From: Deltaproteobacteria bacterium
Lineage (GTDB): Bacteria; Myxococcota_C; UBA6777
DNA: 37,869 nt
Assembly (NCBI GenBank): GCA_002731275.1
Contig: PCBK01000134.1
Coordinates: forward strand, 1 to 37,869
Reading direction: 5' to 3'
Below the pieces are notes generated by a model. The model was not told the DNA's origin and ran no database searches. It was given only the letters and a program-made list of their open reading frames with translations. The translations under genes were made by a program, and so were the position numbers. Shown here one piece after another: positions 5,496-29,266 of the stretch (position 1 is its first letter; every line of letters begins with the position of its first letter).

Positions 5496-6485
5496 ATGGT
5501 TTACATGGTTCGTCTGAAGTATCTGTGCATGATGATATTGTTTCTCTGCCACTCATCAGCTTGGTCTGCCAACAAGTCACCTCACCCAGCGCATATTCAT
5601 CTGCACAATGGCTCCGTCATCATCGGGACATTGACAAACCTTGGTAAGGACAGCCTGACGATCAAAACACCATACGGCCAATTGAATATCCCCCGAACCT
5701 CTATCCGCCGCATTATCCTGTCCAAGCCTGGACAATGGTCCACCACCCCTCCCACAATACAAAGACTCCCACTTCCACCTCCGACTCGCCGGGCGAGTCC
5801 ACAAAAGCGCGTCAAAAAGAGTGTTGTCGACATTGTCTACCTCGAGAATGGGACGTCCTTGGAGGGGAAACTCATCAAAGAAGACAACACCGAAGCGATT
5901 GTCAAATTCAAAACGGCATACGGTGTACTCACGCTCTCCAAGATGGTCATCAAAAAGATCGCCCGGAACCAACAGCCATCCCCTCGACAACCGCCCCCCC
6001 GACAAAAACAACGACAGCCCACACCAAGCGTCGACTCATACGAGCTTCAGAGCAAGAGTGATGTCACCACGAAAGATCGAATCACCTATCTCAAAAAGCT
6101 GAAACAAAAGAGCAAAGTGACCACCGCACAGGTTGGTCTTACGATCTTGGCCACTGCTTACGGCGCGAACGCGCTCGCTTCAGCGGCCTTCGTTTATCTT
6201 CCCATTCTAGGCTCGGGGAGGATAGCTTTTCCAACCACTCCGTTCGTCCTGCTGAACATCCCAATTATTGGGCCCACGATCTTTTTGGGGACACTCGGAA
6301 GCTATACCCCGTTACCTGTCGGTGCGCTTCTTGTTGGTCTCTCGCTCATACAACTCACAGGAGGTATCATCCTCATCGCAGGACTTTGGCCCTCCAAGCG
6401 CAACACGAAGCTGTCACGACGCAAAAAACTCCTCCCTCCTCCTCACATAAATGCGAGCTCACTGACACTTCTCAGCACACAATAG
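5496..6485 (+). CDS. Membrane protein with two SH3-like repeats and C-terminal helices
   Basis: A 329-residue protein of unknown function. It opens with a signal peptide or anchor ('LCMMILFLCHSSAWSA'). Two similar beta-rich repeats follow: 'IHLHNGSVIIGTLTNLGKDSLTIKTPYG...' (residues ~34-70) and 'VYLENGTSLEGKLIKEDNTEAIVKFKTAYG...' (~112-150). Both have the x-L-x-N-G-x-x-x-x-G-x-L layout of SH3/Sm-like barrels. Each is followed by a basic segment, and Pro-rich linkers separate them (PPPTRR; QPPPRQKQRQP). Two long hydrophobic segments (~208-240 and ~245-295) suggest membrane insertion near the C-terminus. ATG 5508 is an alternative start, as the AGG at 5492-5494 is better spaced for it. Divergent from the methyltransferase gene. 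Confidence 0.6.
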   Translation: MVYMVRLKYLCMMILFLCHSSAWSANKSPHPAHIHLHNGSVIIGTLTNLGKDSLTIKTPYGQLNIPRTSIRRIILSKPGQWSTTPPTIQRLPLPPPTRRASPQKRVKKSVVDIVYLENGTSLEGKLIKEDNTEAIVKFKTAYGVLTLSKMVIKKIARNQQPSPRQPPPRQKQRQPTPSVDSYELQSKSDVTTKDRITYLKKLKQKSKVTTAQVGLTILATAYGANALASAAFVYLPILGSGRIAFPTTPFVLLNIPIIGPTIFLGTLGSYTPLPVGALLVGLSLIQLTGGIILIAGLWPSKRNTKLSRRKKLLPPPHINASSLTLLSTQ

Positions 6486-6589
6486 TACCTACGTCCCCTT
6501 GACAATATTCACCAACAAAAAACAATGCACTCCTCGTATCTCTGGGATATGTCATCTCAGACAGACCGAAAGAAACAGGAGAACGCAAC

Positions 6590-6886
6590 ATGAGAGTGAT
6601 GATCGATTTATGTATTGTTCCGATTGGTGTAGGAACATCTCTCTCCAAGTACATCATCGTGTGTGAAAAGATCCTCCAAGAGACTGATCTTGAGATCCAG
6701 CTTCATGCGTACGGGACAAACATCGCAGGTCCGTGGGACGACGTGTTCGCTGCAGTCAAACGCTGTCATGAAGCCCTGCATGAGCTTGGCGCTCCTCGCA
6801 TCACAACCACCATCAAATGCGGGACAAGGACAGACAAAACACAAACCATCCAACAAAAAATCGACAGTGTCGCTGATCACCTCTAA
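6590..6886 (+). CDS. MTH1187/YkoF-type thiamine-binding protein (DUF77)
   Basis: A 98-residue cytoplasmic protein of the MTH1187/YkoF family (UPF0045, PF01910). It has a ferredoxin-like fold, and relatives bind thiamine or a similar HMP-type ligand. Family hallmarks are 'DLCIVPIGVGTSLSKYI' at the N-terminus (5-21), 'HAYGTNIAGPWDDVFAAVKRCHEALHELG' in the middle, and 'RITTTIKCGTRTDK' near the C-terminus. Length matches the family (about 95-105). The ATG is preceded by AGGAG about 8 nt upstream. No thiamine biosynthesis or transport gene lies next to it, so its ligand is inferred from the family only. It probably stands alone, or is loosely followed by the ExbD-like gene 127 nt downstream. Confidence 0.85.
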   Translation: MRVMIDLCIVPIGVGTSLSKYIIVCEKILQETDLEIQLHAYGTNIAGPWDDVFAAVKRCHEALHELGAPRITTTIKCGTRTDKTQTIQQKIDSVADHL

Positions 6887-7013
6887 TCGTATATGTGTAT
6901 GGCGTTAAGAAACGCTCTCAAACTCATACAGGAACTTTTCCTCTCGCTTGTTGACTAGAGAGAGTGTGGGCCCACAAAACACACTCAACCAAGCAAAGCG
7001 ATGAGAGGAAACG

Positions 7014-7550
7014 ATGAAAAAAATCCGCCTCCCTGAAGATGCATCAGGACAGATCAATATCATGCCCTTGATGAACATTATCATGTTATTGATCCCCTTT
7101 TTGATCATGAGCACGGAGTTCATCAGGCTCAGTGTTGTTGACACAACACTACCTGCCTTTTCAAACAATGAACAAGTGAAGCCACCGACCGTTCACAAAA
7201 AAGCCACTCTGCAGTTACATCTGACAGTCACGCAAAGTGGCTTTACACTGATGACACAAAACAAACGCATCCCTACAGGGTGTGATTTGCGCCCAACAGC
7301 AACCCCAACGCCAAGCAAACCAACACTCCCACGTTCAGGAAAGAAACTCCCGTTCAAGGAGCTTGGCGCTTGCCTACAAAAGATCAAGGCGCTCTTCCCC
7401 AAAGAGAAGCGGGTTGTTTTGTTATCCAAACAAAGCATCCCATACAATACGATCATTGCAACAATGGACACTTGCAAAGGATACAGGCGTATGGATAGAG
7501 GAGATAAGCCATTGTTTCCCGATATAGTCATCAGTCCCGGCATACTTTAG
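7014..7550 (+). CDS. Solitary ExbD/TolR-like membrane protein with Asp-to-Asn change
   Basis: A 178-residue protein with the ExbD/TolR layout: a short cytoplasmic N-terminus, one membrane helix (residues 17-36, 'MPLMNIIMLLIPFLIMSTEF') and a periplasmic domain. 'INIMPLMN' aligns with the 'INVTPFID' signature of ExbD, where the Asp carries protons for the ExbB-ExbD or TolQ-TolR motor. Here that position is Asn21, so proton-driven motor function is doubtful. The periplasmic part is split by a Pro/Thr-rich insert ('RPTATPTPSKPTLPRSGK', ~93-110) and ends 'PDIVISPGIL', a typical ExbD-like finish. No exbB/tolQ or tonB gene is in the window. GAGAGGAAACG precedes the ATG. Confidence 0.7.
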   Translation: MKKIRLPEDASGQINIMPLMNIIMLLIPFLIMSTEFIRLSVVDTTLPAFSNNEQVKPPTVHKKATLQLHLTVTQSGFTLMTQNKRIPTGCDLRPTATPTPSKPTLPRSGKKLPFKELGACLQKIKALFPKEKRVVLLSKQSIPYNTIIATMDTCKGYRRMDRGDKPLFPDIVISPGIL

Positions 7551-7629
7551 GCTAGGGAAACAAAAGAGAACATTGTGGGGGATAAAAAGGAGGAAAGGGG
7601 GAAGAATCCAAGGAGAAAATGAAGGGGTC

Positions 7630-8034
7630 TTATTTTTTCTTGGAAGTTTTCTTCTTTGCAGTGGTTTTCTTGGGAGCTGCTTTCTTAGCAGCTGCCTTCT
7701 TGGGAGCTGCTTTCTTGGCAGCCGCTTTCTTGGGAGCTGCTTTCTTCTTCTTTTTCTTGGGATTTGCAACAACGTCTTTCAAGTCGGACCCAGCGCTAAA
7801 GAAGGGAACTTTACGTGCGGGAATCTGGAGAGTTTCACCAGTCGCGGGGTGACGTCCAGTTCTTGGTGCACGCTCTTTGACAGAGAATGTTCCGAAGCCT
7901 TTGATCGCGATTTTGTCGCCGGAAGAAAGTGCGTCCTTCACAGTATCGAAGATTGCAGAGAATGCAGATTCGACGTTCTTTTTGGAAAGTTCAGTTTGTT
8001 CAGCAACAGCAGCAATCAATTCTTTCTTAGTCAT
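7630..8034 (-). CDS. hup: HU-family DNA-binding protein with histone-H1-like Lys/Ala tail
   Basis: Nucleoid protein of the HU/IHF family. Residues 1-90 are a full HU domain: 'MTKKELIAAVAEQTELSKKNVE' at the start, 'GDKIAIKGFGTFSVKERAPRTGRHPATGE' (the DNA-gripping arm) and 'IPARKVPFFSAGSDLKDVV'. After it come ~43 residues of Lys/Ala/Pro repeats (PKKAAAKKAA units), like the C-terminal tails of eukaryotic histone H1 and of HU proteins of some Myxococcota and Actinobacteria. Such tails add sequence-independent DNA binding and compaction. The frame is also open from a TTG (8040) and an ATG (8037), but AGGAGG at 8041-8046 is best spaced for the ATG at 8034, which also gives the usual HU N-terminus. 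Probably highly expressed. Confidence 0.9.
   Translation of the reverse strand: MTKKELIAAVAEQTELSKKNVESAFSAIFDTVKDALSSGDKIAIKGFGTFSVKERAPRTGRHPATGETLQIPARKVPFFSAGSDLKDVVANPKKKKKKAAPKKAAAKKAAPKKAAAKKAAPKKTTAKKKTSKKK
7660..7757 (-). repeat. Short in-gene DNA repeat encoding the HU tail
   Basis: Units of about 15 and 30 nt built from 'ttcttgggagctgct' and 'ttcttggcagcc' recur in tandem and encode the KKAAPKKAAA motif. Such arrays change length easily by slippage. Confidence 0.6.
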
Positions 8035-8190
8035 CATCAACCTCCTGGTTCTTGGAGTGCTGTATCAGCATGCGCCGGTGGCTGCAACATCCAAGACAAA
8101 AATAGCTTGCAAATGAAAAAAGGCGCAATAATGCCCCTGACGCCCATCGTCTGGGGGTCACTCCTGATATGTTTGGAGCTTTCTTTGTAG

Positions 8191-19475: not shown

Positions 19476-19733
19476 ATGAAACAATTCGTTAAAGGTGCAC
19501 TCGTTGCTTCCGCTGTTGCTGGCCTCGTCATGACTGTTGGTTGTGGTGATAACACTGGAACAAACACTGACGAAGTCAAATGCTCCGGTGTCAACGACTG
19601 TAGCGGAAAAGGCGAATGTGGTGCAGCTGATGGTTCCCACGACTGCGCTGGTAAAAACGAGTGTAAAGGAAAAGGTTGGGTCAAAATGTCCAAAGATGAC
19701 TGTACCTCCAAAGGTGGTACTGTTGTCGAATAA
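19476..19733 (+). CDS. bufA: Bufferin-like (BufA2-type) Cys-rich RiPP precursor with lipoprotein-like signal
   Basis: An 85-residue precursor peptide, placed by its sequence and by the DUF692 and DUF2063 genes behind it. Residues 1-23 are an export signal ending 'LVMTVGC'; Cys23 with Gly at -1 and Val at -2 looks like a lipobox, though Thr at -3 is not standard. The core has six Cys (36, 42, 48, 57, 63, 76) in two related units C-S-G-V-N-D-C-S-G-K-G-E-C and C-A-G-K-N-E-C-K-G-K-G-W, then DDC-TSKGG. Bufferins are exported, copper-binding peptides whose Cys are modified by the DUF692/MNIO enzyme. Modification of this one is inferred, and lipid anchoring would be unlike the usual soluble bufferin. 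AGGAG lies 8 nt before the ATG at 19476; the frame is open further upstream but lacks signals. Confidence 0.78.
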   Translation: MKQFVKGALVASAVAGLVMTVGCGDNTGTNTDEVKCSGVNDCSGKGECGAADGSHDCAGKNECKGKGWVKMSKDDCTSKGGTVVE

Positions 19734-19748
19734 TCCAACATGTTCCTC

Positions 19749-19789
19749 GCTTTCCAACGTATAGATGACATGTCATCTTTGTTGAAAGC
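19749..19789. repeat. Perfect palindrome inside a longer imperfect inverted repeat
   Basis: AGATGACATGTCATCT (19763-19778) is a perfect 16-bp palindrome. It is flanked by GCTTTCCAAC and GTTGAAAGC, which pair with one base missing, so the whole stretch could fold into one long hairpin just after bufA. It may protect the precursor mRNA or bind a dimeric regulator. Confidence 0.5.
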
Positions 19790-19803
19790 ATAGATCTCAA
19801 GAG

Positions 19804-19836
19804 AAGCCGAGCCCATTGGGCTCGGCTTTTCTTTTT
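19804..19836 (+). terminator. Strong rho-independent terminator between bufA and bufB
   Basis: AAGCCGAGCCC (19804-19814), loop ATT, GGGCTCGGCTT (19818-19828), with T-rich tail to 19836. The 11-bp GC-rich stem is the best terminator in the window. It would let most transcripts end after the short precursor, with less read-through into the maturase and partner genes. Confidence 0.88.
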
Positions 19837-19864
19837 CGTACCCACCCCATCCAACAGGTGTCTC

Positions 19865-20758
19865 ATGTGGAACAAAACATATCTAGGGCACGGTATCGGT
19901 CTACGTACCGCGCATTACACTTATCTCCTTGAACACCCTGTCAAAGGAGTTGATTGGTTTGAGATCATCTCGGAAAACTTCTTTGGTCCGGGTGGTCGCC
20001 CCTGGGCAGTCCTCCGCAAAGTGCGAGAACAAGTCCCCATCGTGATGCATGGTGTCTCTTTGGGGATAGGTAACACCTCCCCCCTCGACTGGGACTACCT
20101 CAAACAACTCAAAGATCTGGCCGAAAAAGTCGAACCAGCCTGGGTTTCCGATCATATCTGCTGGGGAGGCTATGGAGGACACTACTCACACGACCTGCTC
20201 CCCCTCCCCTACACACAAGAAACACTCGACCACCTCGTCCCACGAATCCACGAAGTCCAAGAGTTCTTAGGACGTCCCATGATGTTTGAGAACGCATCGA
20301 GTTATGTCTCTTTTGCAGAGAGCGAGATGTCCGAATGGGAGTTTGTCGCTGAGTTGGCCAAGCGCACAGGTAGCGGTATCCTTCTCGACGTCAACAATGT
20401 CTATGTCAGCGCAAACAATCACAACTTCGAAGTCGATGATTACATCAACGCGATCCCCAAAGAATACGTCGGTCAATTCCACGTCGCCGGCCACACAGAC
20501 AAAGGGAACTATCTCCTCGACACACACATAGGCCCTGTGATACCAGAAGTGTGGGATGTTTACAAAAAAGCTCTCGCGCGCTTTGGTCCGATCTCAACGC
20601 TCGTAGAGTGGGACGAAGATGTTCCAAGTTTTGAAGAGGTTGTCGCTGAATCCCAACGCGCAAGACACATTGAACAGGAGTTCCTTCATGACACACCCAC
20701 ACAATCTCGATCGCATTCAGAGGTGGTTTTGGAAGAGCATCTCCGCACCACCCGTTGA
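19865..20758 (+). CDS. bufB: DUF692/MNIO-family bufferin maturase
   Basis: A 297-residue member of the multinuclear non-heme iron oxygenase family (MNIO, DUF692; TIM barrel), related to MbnB, TglH and BufB. These enzymes oxidise Cys residues of a precursor peptide in the cytoplasm. The likely iron ligands and signature motifs are present: 'HGVSLGIG' (His62), 'SDHICW' (His97), 'FENASSY' (Glu142), 'LDVNNVYVSANNH' (Asp175, Asn178), 'HVAGHTD' (His206, His210, Asp212), 'DTHIGPV' (His221) and 'VEWDED' (Glu248). The start 'GLGHGIGLRT'-like segment 'YLGHGIGLRTAHY' is typical too. It needs the DUF2063 partner, whose gene overlaps its 3' end by 71 nt (20688-20758). An AGGTG lies about 5 nt upstream of the ATG at 19865. 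The substrate is almost surely the upstream Cys-rich peptide. Confidence 0.9.
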   Translation: MWNKTYLGHGIGLRTAHYTYLLEHPVKGVDWFEIISENFFGPGGRPWAVLRKVREQVPIVMHGVSLGIGNTSPLDWDYLKQLKDLAEKVEPAWVSDHICWGGYGGHYSHDLLPLPYTQETLDHLVPRIHEVQEFLGRPMMFENASSYVSFAESEMSEWEFVAELAKRTGSGILLDVNNVYVSANNHNFEVDDYINAIPKEYVGQFHVAGHTDKGNYLLDTHIGPVIPEVWDVYKKALARFGPISTLVEWDEDVPSFEEVVAESQRARHIEQEFLHDTPTQSRSHSEVVLEEHLRTTR

Positions 20759-21566
20759 GGATCAAAACGGGGAAGTCCAACCTGTCGAAGATGGAAGCCG
20801 TCCCCTCTCGAAGTGGATCGCCTCAGACAGCGAAGACATGGCAGAAGAACGTCTTCAAGTCTATGCGAACATGTACTTCTTTCGTATTCGCGATGTTTTG
20901 ATGGATTTCTTCGAGAAAGCCTATCTCGCGATAGGTCGACAGCATTTTAATGATCTCGTGATCGATTACCTCCCCAACTATCCATCGGACAACGCCTCTT
21001 TGTTCCACATCGGTGGCCAATTGGCAGAGTACACGAAGACACACTCACTCGGACAAACGTACCCTTGGCTACCAGAGCTGCTGCGCTTTGAGCGTCTGCG
21101 TACCAACGTCATCACGATGGAAGACACACCTGTCCTCACAGAAGCATCCCTCAAAGCCTATCCACCAGAACAATGGGGAGAGTTGTCCTTCGAGCCGATC
21201 AAAGCGCTCTACTTTGAGTCCTTTGCGTATCCTATCCATATCCCTTGGAAACGTGTGGAAGAAAAAGATGATGAGCTTTCGGAAGACGAACGCCCAACGC
21301 TTGATCCAAAACCAACCCCTATCGTGATCTGGCGTATGACGTTCAACTCGGCATTTTACGTGATGGGCGAAAACGAAGCGAAAGCCTTCTCGTTGTTACT
21401 GGAAGGAAAAACCTTCAATGAGATCTGCGAGGCCTTTGTCCCTGCTGATATGAGCGAGGAGCCATCAGCAGAAGACATACAAGCCATCGTCCAAGAAGCA
21501 TATCACGCACTCAGCCGCTGGCTCACCAACGGCCTCCTCTCCAAAATCAACGCCCCTAACGCCTAA
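20688..21566 (+). CDS. bufC: DUF2063 family protein, BufC/HvfC-like partner of the maturase
   Basis: A 292-residue protein. Its N-terminal ~110 residues match DUF2063 (PF09836): 'LDRIQRWFWKSI', 'RLQVYANMYFFRIRDVLMDFFEKAYLAIG', 'DYLPNYPSDNASLFHIGGQLAEYTKTH', 'YPWLPELLRFE'. In RiPP loci this protein binds the precursor and delivers it to the MNIO enzyme. The C-terminal half ('PIVIWRMTFNSAFYVMGENEAKAFSLLLEGKTFNEICEAF') has the HvfC/BufC second domain, possibly winged-helix-like. AGGAG at 20676-20680 points to the ATG at 20688, giving a 71-nt overlap with bufB and thus coupled translation. The earlier in-frame ATG at 20619 is unlikely. A charged loop ('EEKDDELSEDERP', ~185-197) is an insert of unknown role. 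Confidence 0.85.
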   Translation: MTHPHNLDRIQRWFWKSISAPPVEDQNGEVQPVEDGSRPLSKWIASDSEDMAEERLQVYANMYFFRIRDVLMDFFEKAYLAIGRQHFNDLVIDYLPNYPSDNASLFHIGGQLAEYTKTHSLGQTYPWLPELLRFERLRTNVITMEDTPVLTEASLKAYPPEQWGELSFEPIKALYFESFAYPIHIPWKRVEEKDDELSEDERPTLDPKPTPIVIWRMTFNSAFYVMGENEAKAFSLLLEGKTFNEICEAFVPADMSEEPSAEDIQAIVQEAYHALSRWLTNGLLSKINAPNA

Positions 21567-24735: not shown

Positions 24736-25344
24736 TCACCCCAATTGACCAGCGAGATGCCCCTGAAGTTTTCGCATCCCTTGTCTCATGCGGGTCTTTA
24801 CAGTCCCCAGCGGAAGCTCTGCTTGCTCAGCAATCTCCGACTGCGAAAGCCCCCCAAAGTACGCCATCATAATGACCTCTCTTTGTTCATCGGGGATCTT
24901 CTGCATAGCCTCTTGTAACAGCTCAGCCCGTTGTGACATCATCGCAAGATCAAAGGGTGTATCACTTGCCATTGTCATCGCAAAATCGACCGCTTTGTTT
25001 TCTTCCCGGAATTTTTGCTTCTTGTTACGCTTGCTTTTCTCGGAACGTGTACGATCAATCGCTCGGTTTCTCGACAGTGTGACAAGCCACCCATAAACGT
25101 TGCCCTTCTTTCGATCAAACACGCTGGCCTTCTCCCACACAAGCATAAACACTTCTTGTACGAGGTCTTCAGCGTCTTCCTGACTTCCTAAAATACGGTA
25201 GACCAGAGAATAAACGAGTTTTGCATAGAGATCATAGAGAGCCTGCAGCGCCTCTGTGTCCTTTTGGGCAATCCTTTCAATCAACTCGATCTCTTCATCG
25301 CTTGTAAAGCGACGAACAACAGCACGAAGAAATGCAAGTAACAC
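24736..25344 (-). CDS. ECF RNA polymerase sigma factor
   Basis: A 202-residue sigma-70-family factor of the extracytoplasmic function type, directing RNA polymerase to its own promoter set. Region 2 is 'LQALYDLYAKLVYSLVYRILGSQEDAEDLVQEVFMLVWEKASVFD' through 'VYGWLVTLSRNRAIDRTRSEKSK'; region 4 is 'IPDEQREVIMMAYFGGLSQSEIAEQAELPLGTVKTRMRQGMRKL'. The DAEDLVQEVF and LGTVKTR motifs are intact. The spacer is rich in Lys/Arg. It looks SigK/RpoE-like. No anti-sigma gene follows: the next gene downstream is the convergent kinase, so control may be through that kinase or in trans. Start GTG 25344 has GAGGA 9 nt upstream. Divergent from the cupredoxin-repeat lipoprotein gene, a natural candidate target. 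Confidence 0.9.
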   Translation of the reverse strand: MLLAFLRAVVRRFTSDEEIELIERIAQKDTEALQALYDLYAKLVYSLVYRILGSQEDAEDLVQEVFMLVWEKASVFDRKKGNVYGWLVTLSRNRAIDRTRSEKSKRNKKQKFREENKAVDFAMTMASDTPFDLAMMSQRAELLQEAMQKIPDEQREVIMMAYFGGLSQSEIAEQAELPLGTVKTRMRQGMRKLQGHLAGQLG

Positions 25345-25861: not shown

Positions 25862-28800
25862 ATGAAACGAATTGCTTTTCTATCATGCCTCGTGTTTGCA
25901 GTCCTGTGGACTGCTTGTAGCGGCGAGATTGTAAATAACAACAACGGTGATCCATCGGTCACACTCACCTTGGACAAACAGACAGCCAAAGCAGGGGACA
26001 CCATCAAATTGAGTATAGAAGTCAAAAACTTCCAGCTCGATAAAAACAAGATGGATTCATCCAACCAAAGCGGAACAGGTCACTATCACGTCTACCTGGA
26101 TGACAAAAAAGACACTGATTACTTCGCTGCCGATGCAGCAGCGACCTTAGACTTCAAAGTTCCTTCCGATATCACAGAGGGAAAACATACGTTGCGGGTC
26201 GAGCTGCGCAACAACGACCACTCGCCTCTCGATCCAGTCGTTGAGGCGAAAGCAGAATTTACCGTCGCAGGCGAAACCACTGGCGGTGATCCAAAGGTCA
26301 CAGCGACACTGGATCAAAACAAGACTAAAGCCGGTGGTGTGTTGAAGATCACAGTGAAAACCGAAAACTTTTCGCTCGTCGACCCCAAGCCGGGCATGAC
26401 GCCAAAAGCCAACGAAGGACACTACCACGTCTACCTTGACGACAATGTCGGTAGTAACTACCTCTACGCCGGATCAAAAGATAGCACCGAGATCACGATC
26501 CCCGTCAGCGCAGCGCCAGGCGCCCACAAGTTGCGCGTGTCACTTCGCAACAATGACCACACTCCCCTTGACCCCGTCGCCGAGGCCACATTGGACATCG
26601 AGGTCGAAGCCCCACAAGGTCCCGCAGTCTCTGCGACTGTCACTCCCACTTCCCCCACACAAGGCCAAGAGCTCGAAGTCAAAGTCTCCGTGGTGAACTT
26701 CAAACTCGACAAAAACAAAATTGGAAAAACCAATGAGGCCGGAGTCGGACACTACCACATCTACCTCGACGACAAGACCGGAAATGACTACATCCATGTC
26801 GCAGCCGACGCGACCACCAAATTCAAACTCCCTGGAGATATCTCAAAAGGTGAACACTCCCTTCGTATCTCACTTCGTAACAACGATCACTCTGCGCTCA
26901 GCCCTGTAGCTGAAGCCAAAGTCAAGATCAACGTCGTCGAAAACACATCCCCCAAAGTGACCGCTACAATCGATAAAACAGACGTCGAAACGGACAGCGA
27001 TGTCACCGTTGACATCAAAACACAGAACTTCATCCTCGACCCTGCCAGCATCGGAAAAGCAAACGTCTCAGGTTCCGGGCACTATCACATCTATCTCGAC
27101 GACAAAACAGGAAACGACTACCTCTACGCTGGCGCCAATGGCAAAGCCACATTCCGTATCCCAGCAGACGCCACAGAGGGCGCGCACAAACTGCGTGTCT
27201 CACTGCGCAACAACGATCATTCAGAGCTCAACCCAAAGGCCGAAGCGATCATCGATATCAAAGTCACCAAAGGGAACCCCAGCGTCACAGGAACAGCCAA
27301 CCCCAAGGTCGTGTTCTCCGGTGGAGAGATCAAACTCGATCTCAAGGTCCGAAACTTCACTCTTGATGCCTCTCAGATCGGCAAAGCGCCGAAGGCTGGC
27401 GTCGGTCACATCCACATCTACCTCGACCAAGAGACGGGCACCAACTACCTCTACGCCGGCGCTGATGCAAACCCAACAGTGACCATCCCTGTGAACACAA
27501 AGCCAGGCGCTCACATCCTGCGCGTCTCCCTCCGCAACAACGACCACTCTGCCCTCAATCCTGTTGCAGAGGTCAAACTCGACTTCAACATCACAGAAGA
27601 CAGCAAACCCGCCGTGACCGCAAAGGCAGACAAGACAACTGTCGAAGCTGGTAAAACATTCAAGCTCACAGTCTCCACAACCAACTTCATCCTGGACGTA
27701 GCGCAAATCGGCAAAGCCAACAAACTCGGTACAGGTCACTACCACGTCTATATGGACAACAACACAGGACTCAACTACCTCTACGCTGGCGCTGATCTCA
27801 ACCCAACGATCACAATCCCCAACGCGACGACAAAAGGAAAACACACCATCCGAGTGTCCCTCCGCAACAACGACCACACGCCTTTCACCCCCACAACCGA
27901 GGCCACCTTTGACCTCACGATCAACGAAAGCACAAGCCCCGTTGTGAGCGCAACTATCGCAAACAACCTCGTGATCGCTGGCGACAAAGTGAAGCTCGCC
28001 GTCACCACCAAGAACTTCACACTTAACCCCAATGGGATCGGCAAAGCCAACGTCGCAGGCGAAGGACACATTCACGTCTATCTCGATAACAACGTTGGAA
28101 GCAACTACCTTTACGCTGGCGCCGACGCAAATCCAGAGTTCACCATACCAGCCGCAACGACTCTCGGCGTACACCAACTCCACGTCGTCCTCCACAACAA
28201 CGATCACAGCGAATACTCCCCCAAAACAGAAGCCATCGTGAACATCACCGTTTCAGATGGCTCCCCAAAGGTCTTTGCACAAGGAACCAAAGGGAGCGTC
28301 AAACCCGGTGAACAAATGGGTGTCTCTGTCACTGTTCAGAACTTCAAATTGGACCCCAATGGGATCGGAAAAGCCAACGTCAAAGGCGAGGGACACATCC
28401 ACATCTACCTCGACAATGAAACGGGCTCCAATTACCTCTACGCTGGCGCAGACGCAAACCCCACATTCAACATCCCAGCATCGACCAAAGCCGGCGCACA
28501 TACATTGCGTGTTGCGCTCCACAACAATGACCACTCTGCCGTTTCCCCTGCGGTTGAGGCGACCGTGAGCTTTACAGTGAGCAGCGGCTCCGCGCCCTCT
28601 GTAACAGCGACACCTGACAAAACCACCATCGCAGCAGGCGACAAGATCACATTGACTGTCACCGCGCAAAACTTCAGCATCGACGCATCCCAAATCGGAA
28701 AGGCCAACTCTCCAGGTGTCGGTCACTACCACGTCTACCTCGACAACGAAACGGGCAACAATTACCTTTACGCTGGTGCCGATGCAAAAGCAGTCATCAC

Positions 28801-29266
28801 CATCCCAGGAACGACAGCAGCTGGTGCACACACACTCCGCGTATCACTCCGCAACAACGACCACTCAGCCGTTTCCCCTGCGGTTGAGGCGACCGTCAAC
28901 TTTACAGTGAGCAGCGGCACAGCGCCCAAGTGCAGCGCATCATACGCAAACTGTACGAACTACACGGACTTGACAGCGTCAGCTTCTATTCGTGAGGTCA
29001 AGTTTGGCTCGGCTGGTAGCGGGAACTCATACACACCCAAGTGTATCAAGATCAAGGTCGGACAAACTGTGAAATTTGATGGTAACTTCAGCGGTCACCC
29101 CCTCAAAACACAATGTCAGGAAGCTTCCGACATGACAGACACAAGTACCGGCACGACCAAAAACTTCACATTCACGAAACCTGGCTACTACAACTACTAC
29201 TGCCAATTCCACTCAAACGGTACAACAGGCTCTGGTATGGCTGGTAACATCTGGGTTGTCCCCTGA
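25862..29266 (+). CDS. Giant lipoprotein with nine His-bearing repeats and C-terminal cupredoxin domain
   Basis: A 1134-residue secreted protein. 'MKRIAFLSCLVFAVLWTAC' is a lipoprotein-like signal (Cys19). Nine repeats of about 110 residues follow, each with a G-H-[YI]-H-[VI]-Y-[LM]-D motif, an 'NYLYAGADANPT' strand, a 'G.H.LRVSLRNNDH' segment and a '.P..EA...V' end. Thus about four His per repeat stand at fixed places. The layout resembles DUF4399-type domains, beta-sandwiches with GHxH and DH motifs, but the match is by eye. The last ~110 residues form a plastocyanin-like cupredoxin with the type 1 copper ligands: His in 'SGHPL', Cys and His in 'YYCQFH', and Met in 'SGMAGN'. So it can bind one copper in the C-terminal domain and probably more metal in the repeats (inference). 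ATG 25862 follows GGAGGAAG. Confidence 0.85.
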   Translation: MKRIAFLSCLVFAVLWTACSGEIVNNNNGDPSVTLTLDKQTAKAGDTIKLSIEVKNFQLDKNKMDSSNQSGTGHYHVYLDDKKDTDYFAADAAATLDFKVPSDITEGKHTLRVELRNNDHSPLDPVVEAKAEFTVAGETTGGDPKVTATLDQNKTKAGGVLKITVKTENFSLVDPKPGMTPKANEGHYHVYLDDNVGSNYLYAGSKDSTEITIPVSAAPGAHKLRVSLRNNDHTPLDPVAEATLDIEVEAPQGPAVSATVTPTSPTQGQELEVKVSVVNFKLDKNKIGKTNEAGVGHYHIYLDDKTGNDYIHVAADATTKFKLPGDISKGEHSLRISLRNNDHSALSPVAEAKVKINVVENTSPKVTATIDKTDVETDSDVTVDIKTQNFILDPASIGKANVSGSGHYHIYLDDKTGNDYLYAGANGKATFRIPADATEGAHKLRVSLRNNDHSELNPKAEAIIDIKVTKGNPSVTGTANPKVVFSGGEIKLDLKVRNFTLDASQIGKAPKAGVGHIHIYLDQETGTNYLYAGADANPTVTIPVNTKPGAHILRVSLRNNDHSALNPVAEVKLDFNITEDSKPAVTAKADKTTVEAGKTFKLTVSTTNFILDVAQIGKANKLGTGHYHVYMDNNTGLNYLYAGADLNPTITIPNATTKGKHTIRVSLRNNDHTPFTPTTEATFDLTINESTSPVVSATIANNLVIAGDKVKLAVTTKNFTLNPNGIGKANVAGEGHIHVYLDNNVGSNYLYAGADANPEFTIPAATTLGVHQLHVVLHNNDHSEYSPKTEAIVNITVSDGSPKVFAQGTKGSVKPGEQMGVSVTVQNFKLDPNGIGKANVKGEGHIHIYLDNETGSNYLYAGADANPTFNIPASTKAGAHTLRVALHNNDHSAVSPAVEATVSFTVSSGSAPSVTATPDKTTIAAGDKITLTVTAQNFSIDASQIGKANSPGVGHYHVYLDNETGNNYLYAGADAKAVITIPGTTAAGAHTLRVSLRNNDHSAVSPAVEATVNFTVSSGTAPKCSASYANCTNYTDLTASASIREVKFGSAGSGNSYTPKCIKIKVGQTVKFDGNFSGHPLKTQCQEASDMTDTSTGTTKNFTFTKPGYYNYYCQFHSNGTTGSGMAGNIWVVP
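25950..28925 (+). repeat. Nine tandem ~330-bp direct repeats inside the cupredoxin-repeat gene
   Basis: The GHYH/GHIH motif codons recur near 26077, 26418, 26749, 27079, 27406, 27736, 28066, 28393 and 28720, a period of 327-341 bp. The copies differ in most third positions, except that the end segments of repeats 8 and 9 (about 28535-28595 and 28862-28922) are almost identical in DNA. Confidence 0.85.

Follow-up and report, generated by a model that had tools for sequence, protein, structure and literature searches.

The lipoprotein described here, encoded within a 37,869-nucleotide stretch of contig PCBK01000134.1 (the window), joins two known kinds of domain in an unusual way: a tandem array related to DUF4399, a family without known function, and a plastocyanin-like cupredoxin. 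Table 1 presents the features of the gene and its surroundings. In the structure proposed, nine DUF4399-type domains with an Ig-like fold would line up as a rod, anchored by its lipid at one end and tipped at the other by the plastocyanin-like domain. Each Ig domain would present one solvent-facing site of three histidines, made up of the HxH motif of strand C and the NNDH histidine past strand F, while the tip domain would hold a type 1 copper ion. By these means the lipoprotein may capture copper and buffer it beyond the inner membrane, either at the membrane or at the cell surface. The description of the protein as a copper-binding lipoprotein of the surface or periplasm, with an Ig-like stalk and a role in capturing or buffering copper, has about an even chance of being right. 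It builds on the repeats, the lipobox, the family match, the predicted Ig fold, the cupredoxin ligands and the joint loss of site residues; metal binding, the identity of the metal, the location and the buffering role are the steps that we infer from these.

Table 1. Features of the lipoprotein gene and of nearby genes in the window
Feature	Position	Strand	Basis or remark
Bufferin-type precursor, 85 residues, lipoprotein-like, six Cys after lipobox	19476-19733	+	
MbnB/TglH/ChrH enzyme	19865-20758	+	
DUF2063 partner	20619-21566	+	
ECF sigma factor gene, transcribed away from the lipoprotein gene, ~515 bp apart	24736..25344	-	possible regulator, from position only
Lipoprotein gene	25862..29266	+	1134 residues; ATG at 25862, stop at 29266
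Lipoprotein signal peptide with lipobox LWTA-C19 followed by Ser (+2)	25862..25918	+	sequence
Repeat 1 (DUF4399-like Ig domain, predicted three-His site)	25952..26290	+	
Repeat 2 (DUF4399-like Ig domain)	26291..26620	+	
Repeat 3 (DUF4399-like Ig domain)	26621..26950	+	
Repeat 4 (DUF4399-like Ig domain)	26951..27277	+	
Repeat 5 (DUF4399-like Ig domain)	27278..27607	+	
Repeat 6 (DUF4399-like Ig domain)	27608..27937	+	
Repeat 7 (DUF4399-like Ig domain)	27938..28264	+	
Repeat 8 (DUF4399-like Ig domain)	28265..28594	+	
Repeat 9 (DUF4399-like Ig domain)	28595..28924	+	
Plastocyanin-like cupredoxin domain, ligands H1079, C1114, H1117, M1126	28925..29263	+	profile and 1bxu match

Domain architecture and relatives

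The N-terminus of the protein, MKRIAFLSCLVFAVLWTAC, comprises by eye a signal peptide and a lipobox (LWTAC) ending in Cys19, in agreement with the first-pass annotation, which had called a lipoprotein. That annotation also counted nine repeats of about 110 residues, each with GH[YI]H, GxH and NNDH, and about 36 histidines among them. Both counts hold: nine in-register repeats of 109-113 residues begin at residues 31, 144, 254, 364, 473, 583, 693, 802 and 912, all nine carry the three motifs, and 36 of the 42 histidines lie in those motifs, the remainder being two cupredoxin ligands and four elsewhere (312, 774, 778 and 887). Pairwise identity among the repeats is 39-63%, with a mean pS of 0.67 against a mean pN of 0.35, which marks them as old copies under purifying selection and not as a recent tandem duplication.

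A comparison with DUF4399 (PF14347), proposed earlier as a check, came out in favor of a relationship. The whole protein matches the profile over seven stretches (E 1.8e-34, 118.4 bits, gathering cut-off 28), while the three best single repeats reach 24-26 bits each when scored alone against the same cut-off. The canonical members compared are mostly single domains of ~150 residues, with GHHHLLID, an HxHFG-type motif, PGxHTL and a later His. Since the HxHFG-type motif is absent from all nine repeats, they represent a divergent branch of the family. A full-text literature search found no published function for DUF4399, which three papers name once each; in one modelling study, DUF4399 is predicted to form a complex with DoxX (PMC13311259). 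A sequence profile of the repeats retrieved no relative of them from the PDB, and an Rfam search of the window gave no match.

Turning to the tip, the C-terminal ~113 residues match plastocyanin 1bxu (E 3.6e-7) with the four ligands of Table 1 in register, bearing out the original assignment of a complete set of type 1 copper ligands. The ligand loop reads C-x2-H-x8-M, compared with C-x2-H-x7-M in a paralogue from the same genome and C-x2-H-x4-M in plastocyanin, so that the His-to-Met loop is four residues longer than in plastocyanin. This longer loop counts against the copper-binding reading, as does the poor quality of the cupredoxin part of the structure model (mostly pLDDT 44-76). Only two PF00127 domains were found in the source genome, one at the tip of the window protein and the other at the tip of the paralogue.

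Among the genomes of the phylum examined, the repeats occur in three of five. G003 encodes a five-repeat lipoprotein without a cupredoxin, and G001 a similar repeat gene interrupted by contig ends. A scan of 84,980 species, which used a pattern from an alignment of the window repeats only and, being pattern-based, can miss members, found 42 related loci, each holding between one and six repeats, in Myxococcales, other Deltaproteobacteria, Gammaproteobacteria, Chloroflexota, Bacillota, Aenigmatarchaeota and others. In none of these 42 loci are the repeats fused to such a cupredoxin, and the plasmid and phage collections searched gave no match to the repeats. The fusion of a DUF4399 array to a cupredoxin was found in the source genome only, where it occurs twice, in the window gene and in the paralogue. 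No literature was found on cupredoxins joined to Ig-like repeats, and a broader search found none on such a design; within these searches, the earlier remark that no named protein is built this way stands. At loci L104 and L110, a canonical DUF4399 domain appears, by eye only, within proteins resembling tricorn-type peptidases.

The predicted histidine site of each repeat

AlphaFold2 predicts a single repeat to be an Ig-like sandwich (pLDDT 96.3, pTM 0.88), and repeats 8-9 model alike. The predicted strands, in unit numbering, are A 2-7, B 17-25, C 42-49, F 77-87 and G 98-106. In this model, H44 and H46 of the HxH motif lie on strand C, H79 of GxH starts strand F and H90 of NNDH falls just past it. 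Strands C and F are antiparallel neighbors in Ig folds, which would place H44 and H46 beside H90. As strand F is 11 residues long, H79 would lie at one end of the domain and H90 at the other. Of the motif histidines whose clustering was to be checked by structure prediction, H44, H46 and H90 would thus probably lie together and H79 apart from them. Residues 45, 47 and 49, along with 81, 83 and 85, are hydrophobic in 97-100% of 73 domains, an alternation indicating that H44 and H46 face outward and that H79 faces the core.

Patterns of loss lead to the same grouping. The second HxH histidine is lost in six of 108 domains, and all six have also lost the NNDH histidine (Fisher p 4e-9, a value that treats related repeats as independent although the losses amount to only about three separate events). 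These losses fall in the first repeat of the G003 and G001 proteins, in the first repeat of L025 and in the same-genome paralogue. The GxH histidine shows no association with HxH/NNDH loss across the 108 domains (p 0.24-0.38). Together, the joint loss, the independence of GxH and the core-facing, opposite-end position predicted for H79 point to one three-histidine site per repeat, formed by both HxH histidines and the NNDH histidine, rather than a four-histidine site. The GxH histidine is probably outside the site and is better explained as structural. For the window protein as a whole, the evidence points to about 27 candidate site histidines in nine predicted sites and not to 36 ligands. The earlier idea that the repeats bind metal is plausible for three of the four motif histidines, and a single transition metal ion is the most likely occupant of the predicted site, with copper as the best guess. 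Cys or Met ligands are typical of Cu(I) sites, and the lack of any Cys or conserved Met in the repeats is a point against the copper-binding reading.

Two functions suggested by the first-pass annotation can be weighed against this site. A high-capacity copper store would make sense of nine repeated histidine sites in one chain, but one site per 110 residues (a domain of ~12 kDa) is sparse compared with the Csp family, and the probable exclusion of GxH leaves 27 candidate ligands instead of 36; a storage role fits poorly and is improbable. The second suggestion, an electron-transfer conduit running along the histidine sites to the cupredoxin, has a plausible electron carrier at one end. However, equivalent points in tandem Ig arrays recur about every 4 nm, as compared with a tunnelling limit near 1.4 nm, and the repeats contain no heme and no Cys/Met sites. 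With His-only copper sites also being poor fast electron carriers, a conduit is very unlikely. At the usual length of 4 nm per Ig domain in tandem, the extended rod of this lipoprotein, most likely located in the outer membrane or at the surface, would measure roughly 35-40 nm.

Fold searches with the repeat model returned only common Ig/Fn3 sandwiches, the best being Spo0M (Z 9.5 over 93 residues at 3.1 A), and the nearest folds are generic modules that include those of biofilm and S-layer proteins. SOD1 was absent among the fold matches listed. Foldseek also listed copper LPMOs and CopC (5icu), but only weakly (E 1e-3 to 1e-2), and these matches were taken as generic. Folds of this sort would suit an adhesin-like or spacer stalk that holds the cupredoxin off the membrane, with the histidines being structural or with a metal that merely stiffens the domain or joins molecules. 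The free variation in repeat number among relatives (one to six elsewhere, three and nine in the source genome) is consistent with such a stalk, as is the paralogue, which retains the stalk and cupredoxin without the site. On the other hand, the outward HxH and NNDH residues are near invariant across phyla, whereas most other surface positions of the 73 domains are variable, and this near invariance speaks more for ligand binding than for maintenance of the fold. A stalk of this kind is possible, if on the doubtful side.

The same-genome paralogue and gene neighborhoods

The paralogue (L075:6364-7788, contig C3 of the source genome) encodes a lipobox and three repeats followed by a cupredoxin that is 52% identical to that of the window protein. 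Its repeats read GHFR, GYYK or GHYK, and NDG, such that the site is lost in all three while GxH is kept; persistence of the architecture without the sites is a further point against the copper-binding reading. Upstream of the paralogue, one gene codes for an exonuclease-like protein of 287 residues and another for a long coiled-coil protein; the repeat genes of G003 and G001 have similar upstream neighbors. By virtue of these neighbors, the paralogue is probably the positional counterpart of the multi-repeat genes of G003 and G001, with the window gene as the extra copy. The paralogue offers a natural control, having the same layout in the same genome but repeats without the candidate sites, and its contrast with the window protein could show if HxH and NNDH bind metal and which metal. 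Such a contrast would give DUF4399, a family spread over several phyla and tied by the window protein to a blue-copper domain, a first function.

A copper role for the window lipoprotein is suggested by its cupredoxin, by a CopD gene between DUF4399 genes and by copper monooxygenase fusions. The CopD gene belongs to a Chloroflexota cluster (L016:1803-4611) that encodes an ECF sigma factor, RskA, a DUF4399 lipoprotein, CopD and another DUF4399 lipoprotein. The fusions are found in Gammaproteobacteria, where L023 and L019 combine a cytochrome, Cu2_monoox_C and a DUF4399-like domain in one protein. A survey of 112 proteins neighboring the relatives found no copper enrichment, and this result, like the signalling genes that adjoin Bacillota members, stands against the copper-binding reading. 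L018, L024, L029, L033, L036, L049 and L050 resemble L023 and L019; these gammaproteobacterial proteins have about 850-990 residues, and several of them carry a His/Asp-rich insert ahead of GHYH.

The neighborhoods also bear on extracytoplasmic sensing, whereby a metal-bound lipoprotein would signal to a membrane sensor or an ECF sigma factor. The divergent sigma gene beside the window gene, the Chloroflexota cluster, in which the sigma factor is the window ECF protein's sole homologue among the related loci, and the Bacillota members, five of six of which precede HAMP-type or GGDEF-HD-GYP sensor genes, all favor such a system. The Bacillota arrangement suggests that these lipoproteins are sensing partners. 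For the window protein, sensing is nonetheless rather unlikely: no anti-sigma factor gene lies next to the window sigma gene, nine repeats and a cupredoxin exceed the needs of a sensor partner, and there are same-family relatives without an ECF sigma neighborhood. L027, L032, L038, L047 and L051 (near 5700-8100) are Bacillota single-domain DUF4399-like lipoproteins before GGDEF-HD-GYP or HAMP histidine kinase genes.

The window also contains a bufferin-type RiPP cluster (19476-21566, plus strand) that ends about 4 kb upstream of the lipoprotein gene. Bufferins sequester periplasmic copper (PMC12452194). MNIO genes are present in four of the five phylum genomes, on contigs other than those with repeat genes; being common in the phylum and unlinked to repeat genes elsewhere, they give the cluster no weight as copper evidence.

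Comparison with known systems

The copper-binding lipoprotein proposed here can be set beside four known systems. CopC is likewise extracytoplasmic with an Ig-like fold, and DUF4399 is found beside CopD in one cluster. An earlier proposal to compare the repeats with CopC-type folds was answered in part: 5icu is among the weak fold matches, but these are regarded as generic, and the CopC profile (PF04234) matches nothing in the five genomes examined from the phylum, the source genome included. Moreover, CopC uses an N-terminal His, whereas the N-terminus of the window protein is a lipidated Cys. A bolder and tentative proposal is that DUF4399 is a CopC-like extracytoplasmic copper family with an HxH and NNDH site, in which case the window protein may capture copper at the surface through its many sites and pass it on to its type 1 tip, regulated by the divergent ECF sigma factor.

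The Csp copper storage proteins share the proposed sequestration of copper. They are Cys-lined four-helix bundles that bind many Cu(I) per small chain, whereas the window repeats, predicted to be all beta and lacking Cys, are Ig domains with one candidate His site each. Plastocyanin and halocyanin-type cupredoxins (PF00127) share all four type 1 ligands with the window tip, which also matches 1bxu in sequence; the tip differs in its fusion to a DUF4399 array, its H-x8-M rather than H-x4-M spacing and its weak match to the family models. DUF4399 itself shares with the repeats the conserved GHxH, GxH and His after strand F, as well as export or lipid anchoring, and its canonical members differ from the window array in being mostly single-domain proteins that carry the HxHFG-type motif.
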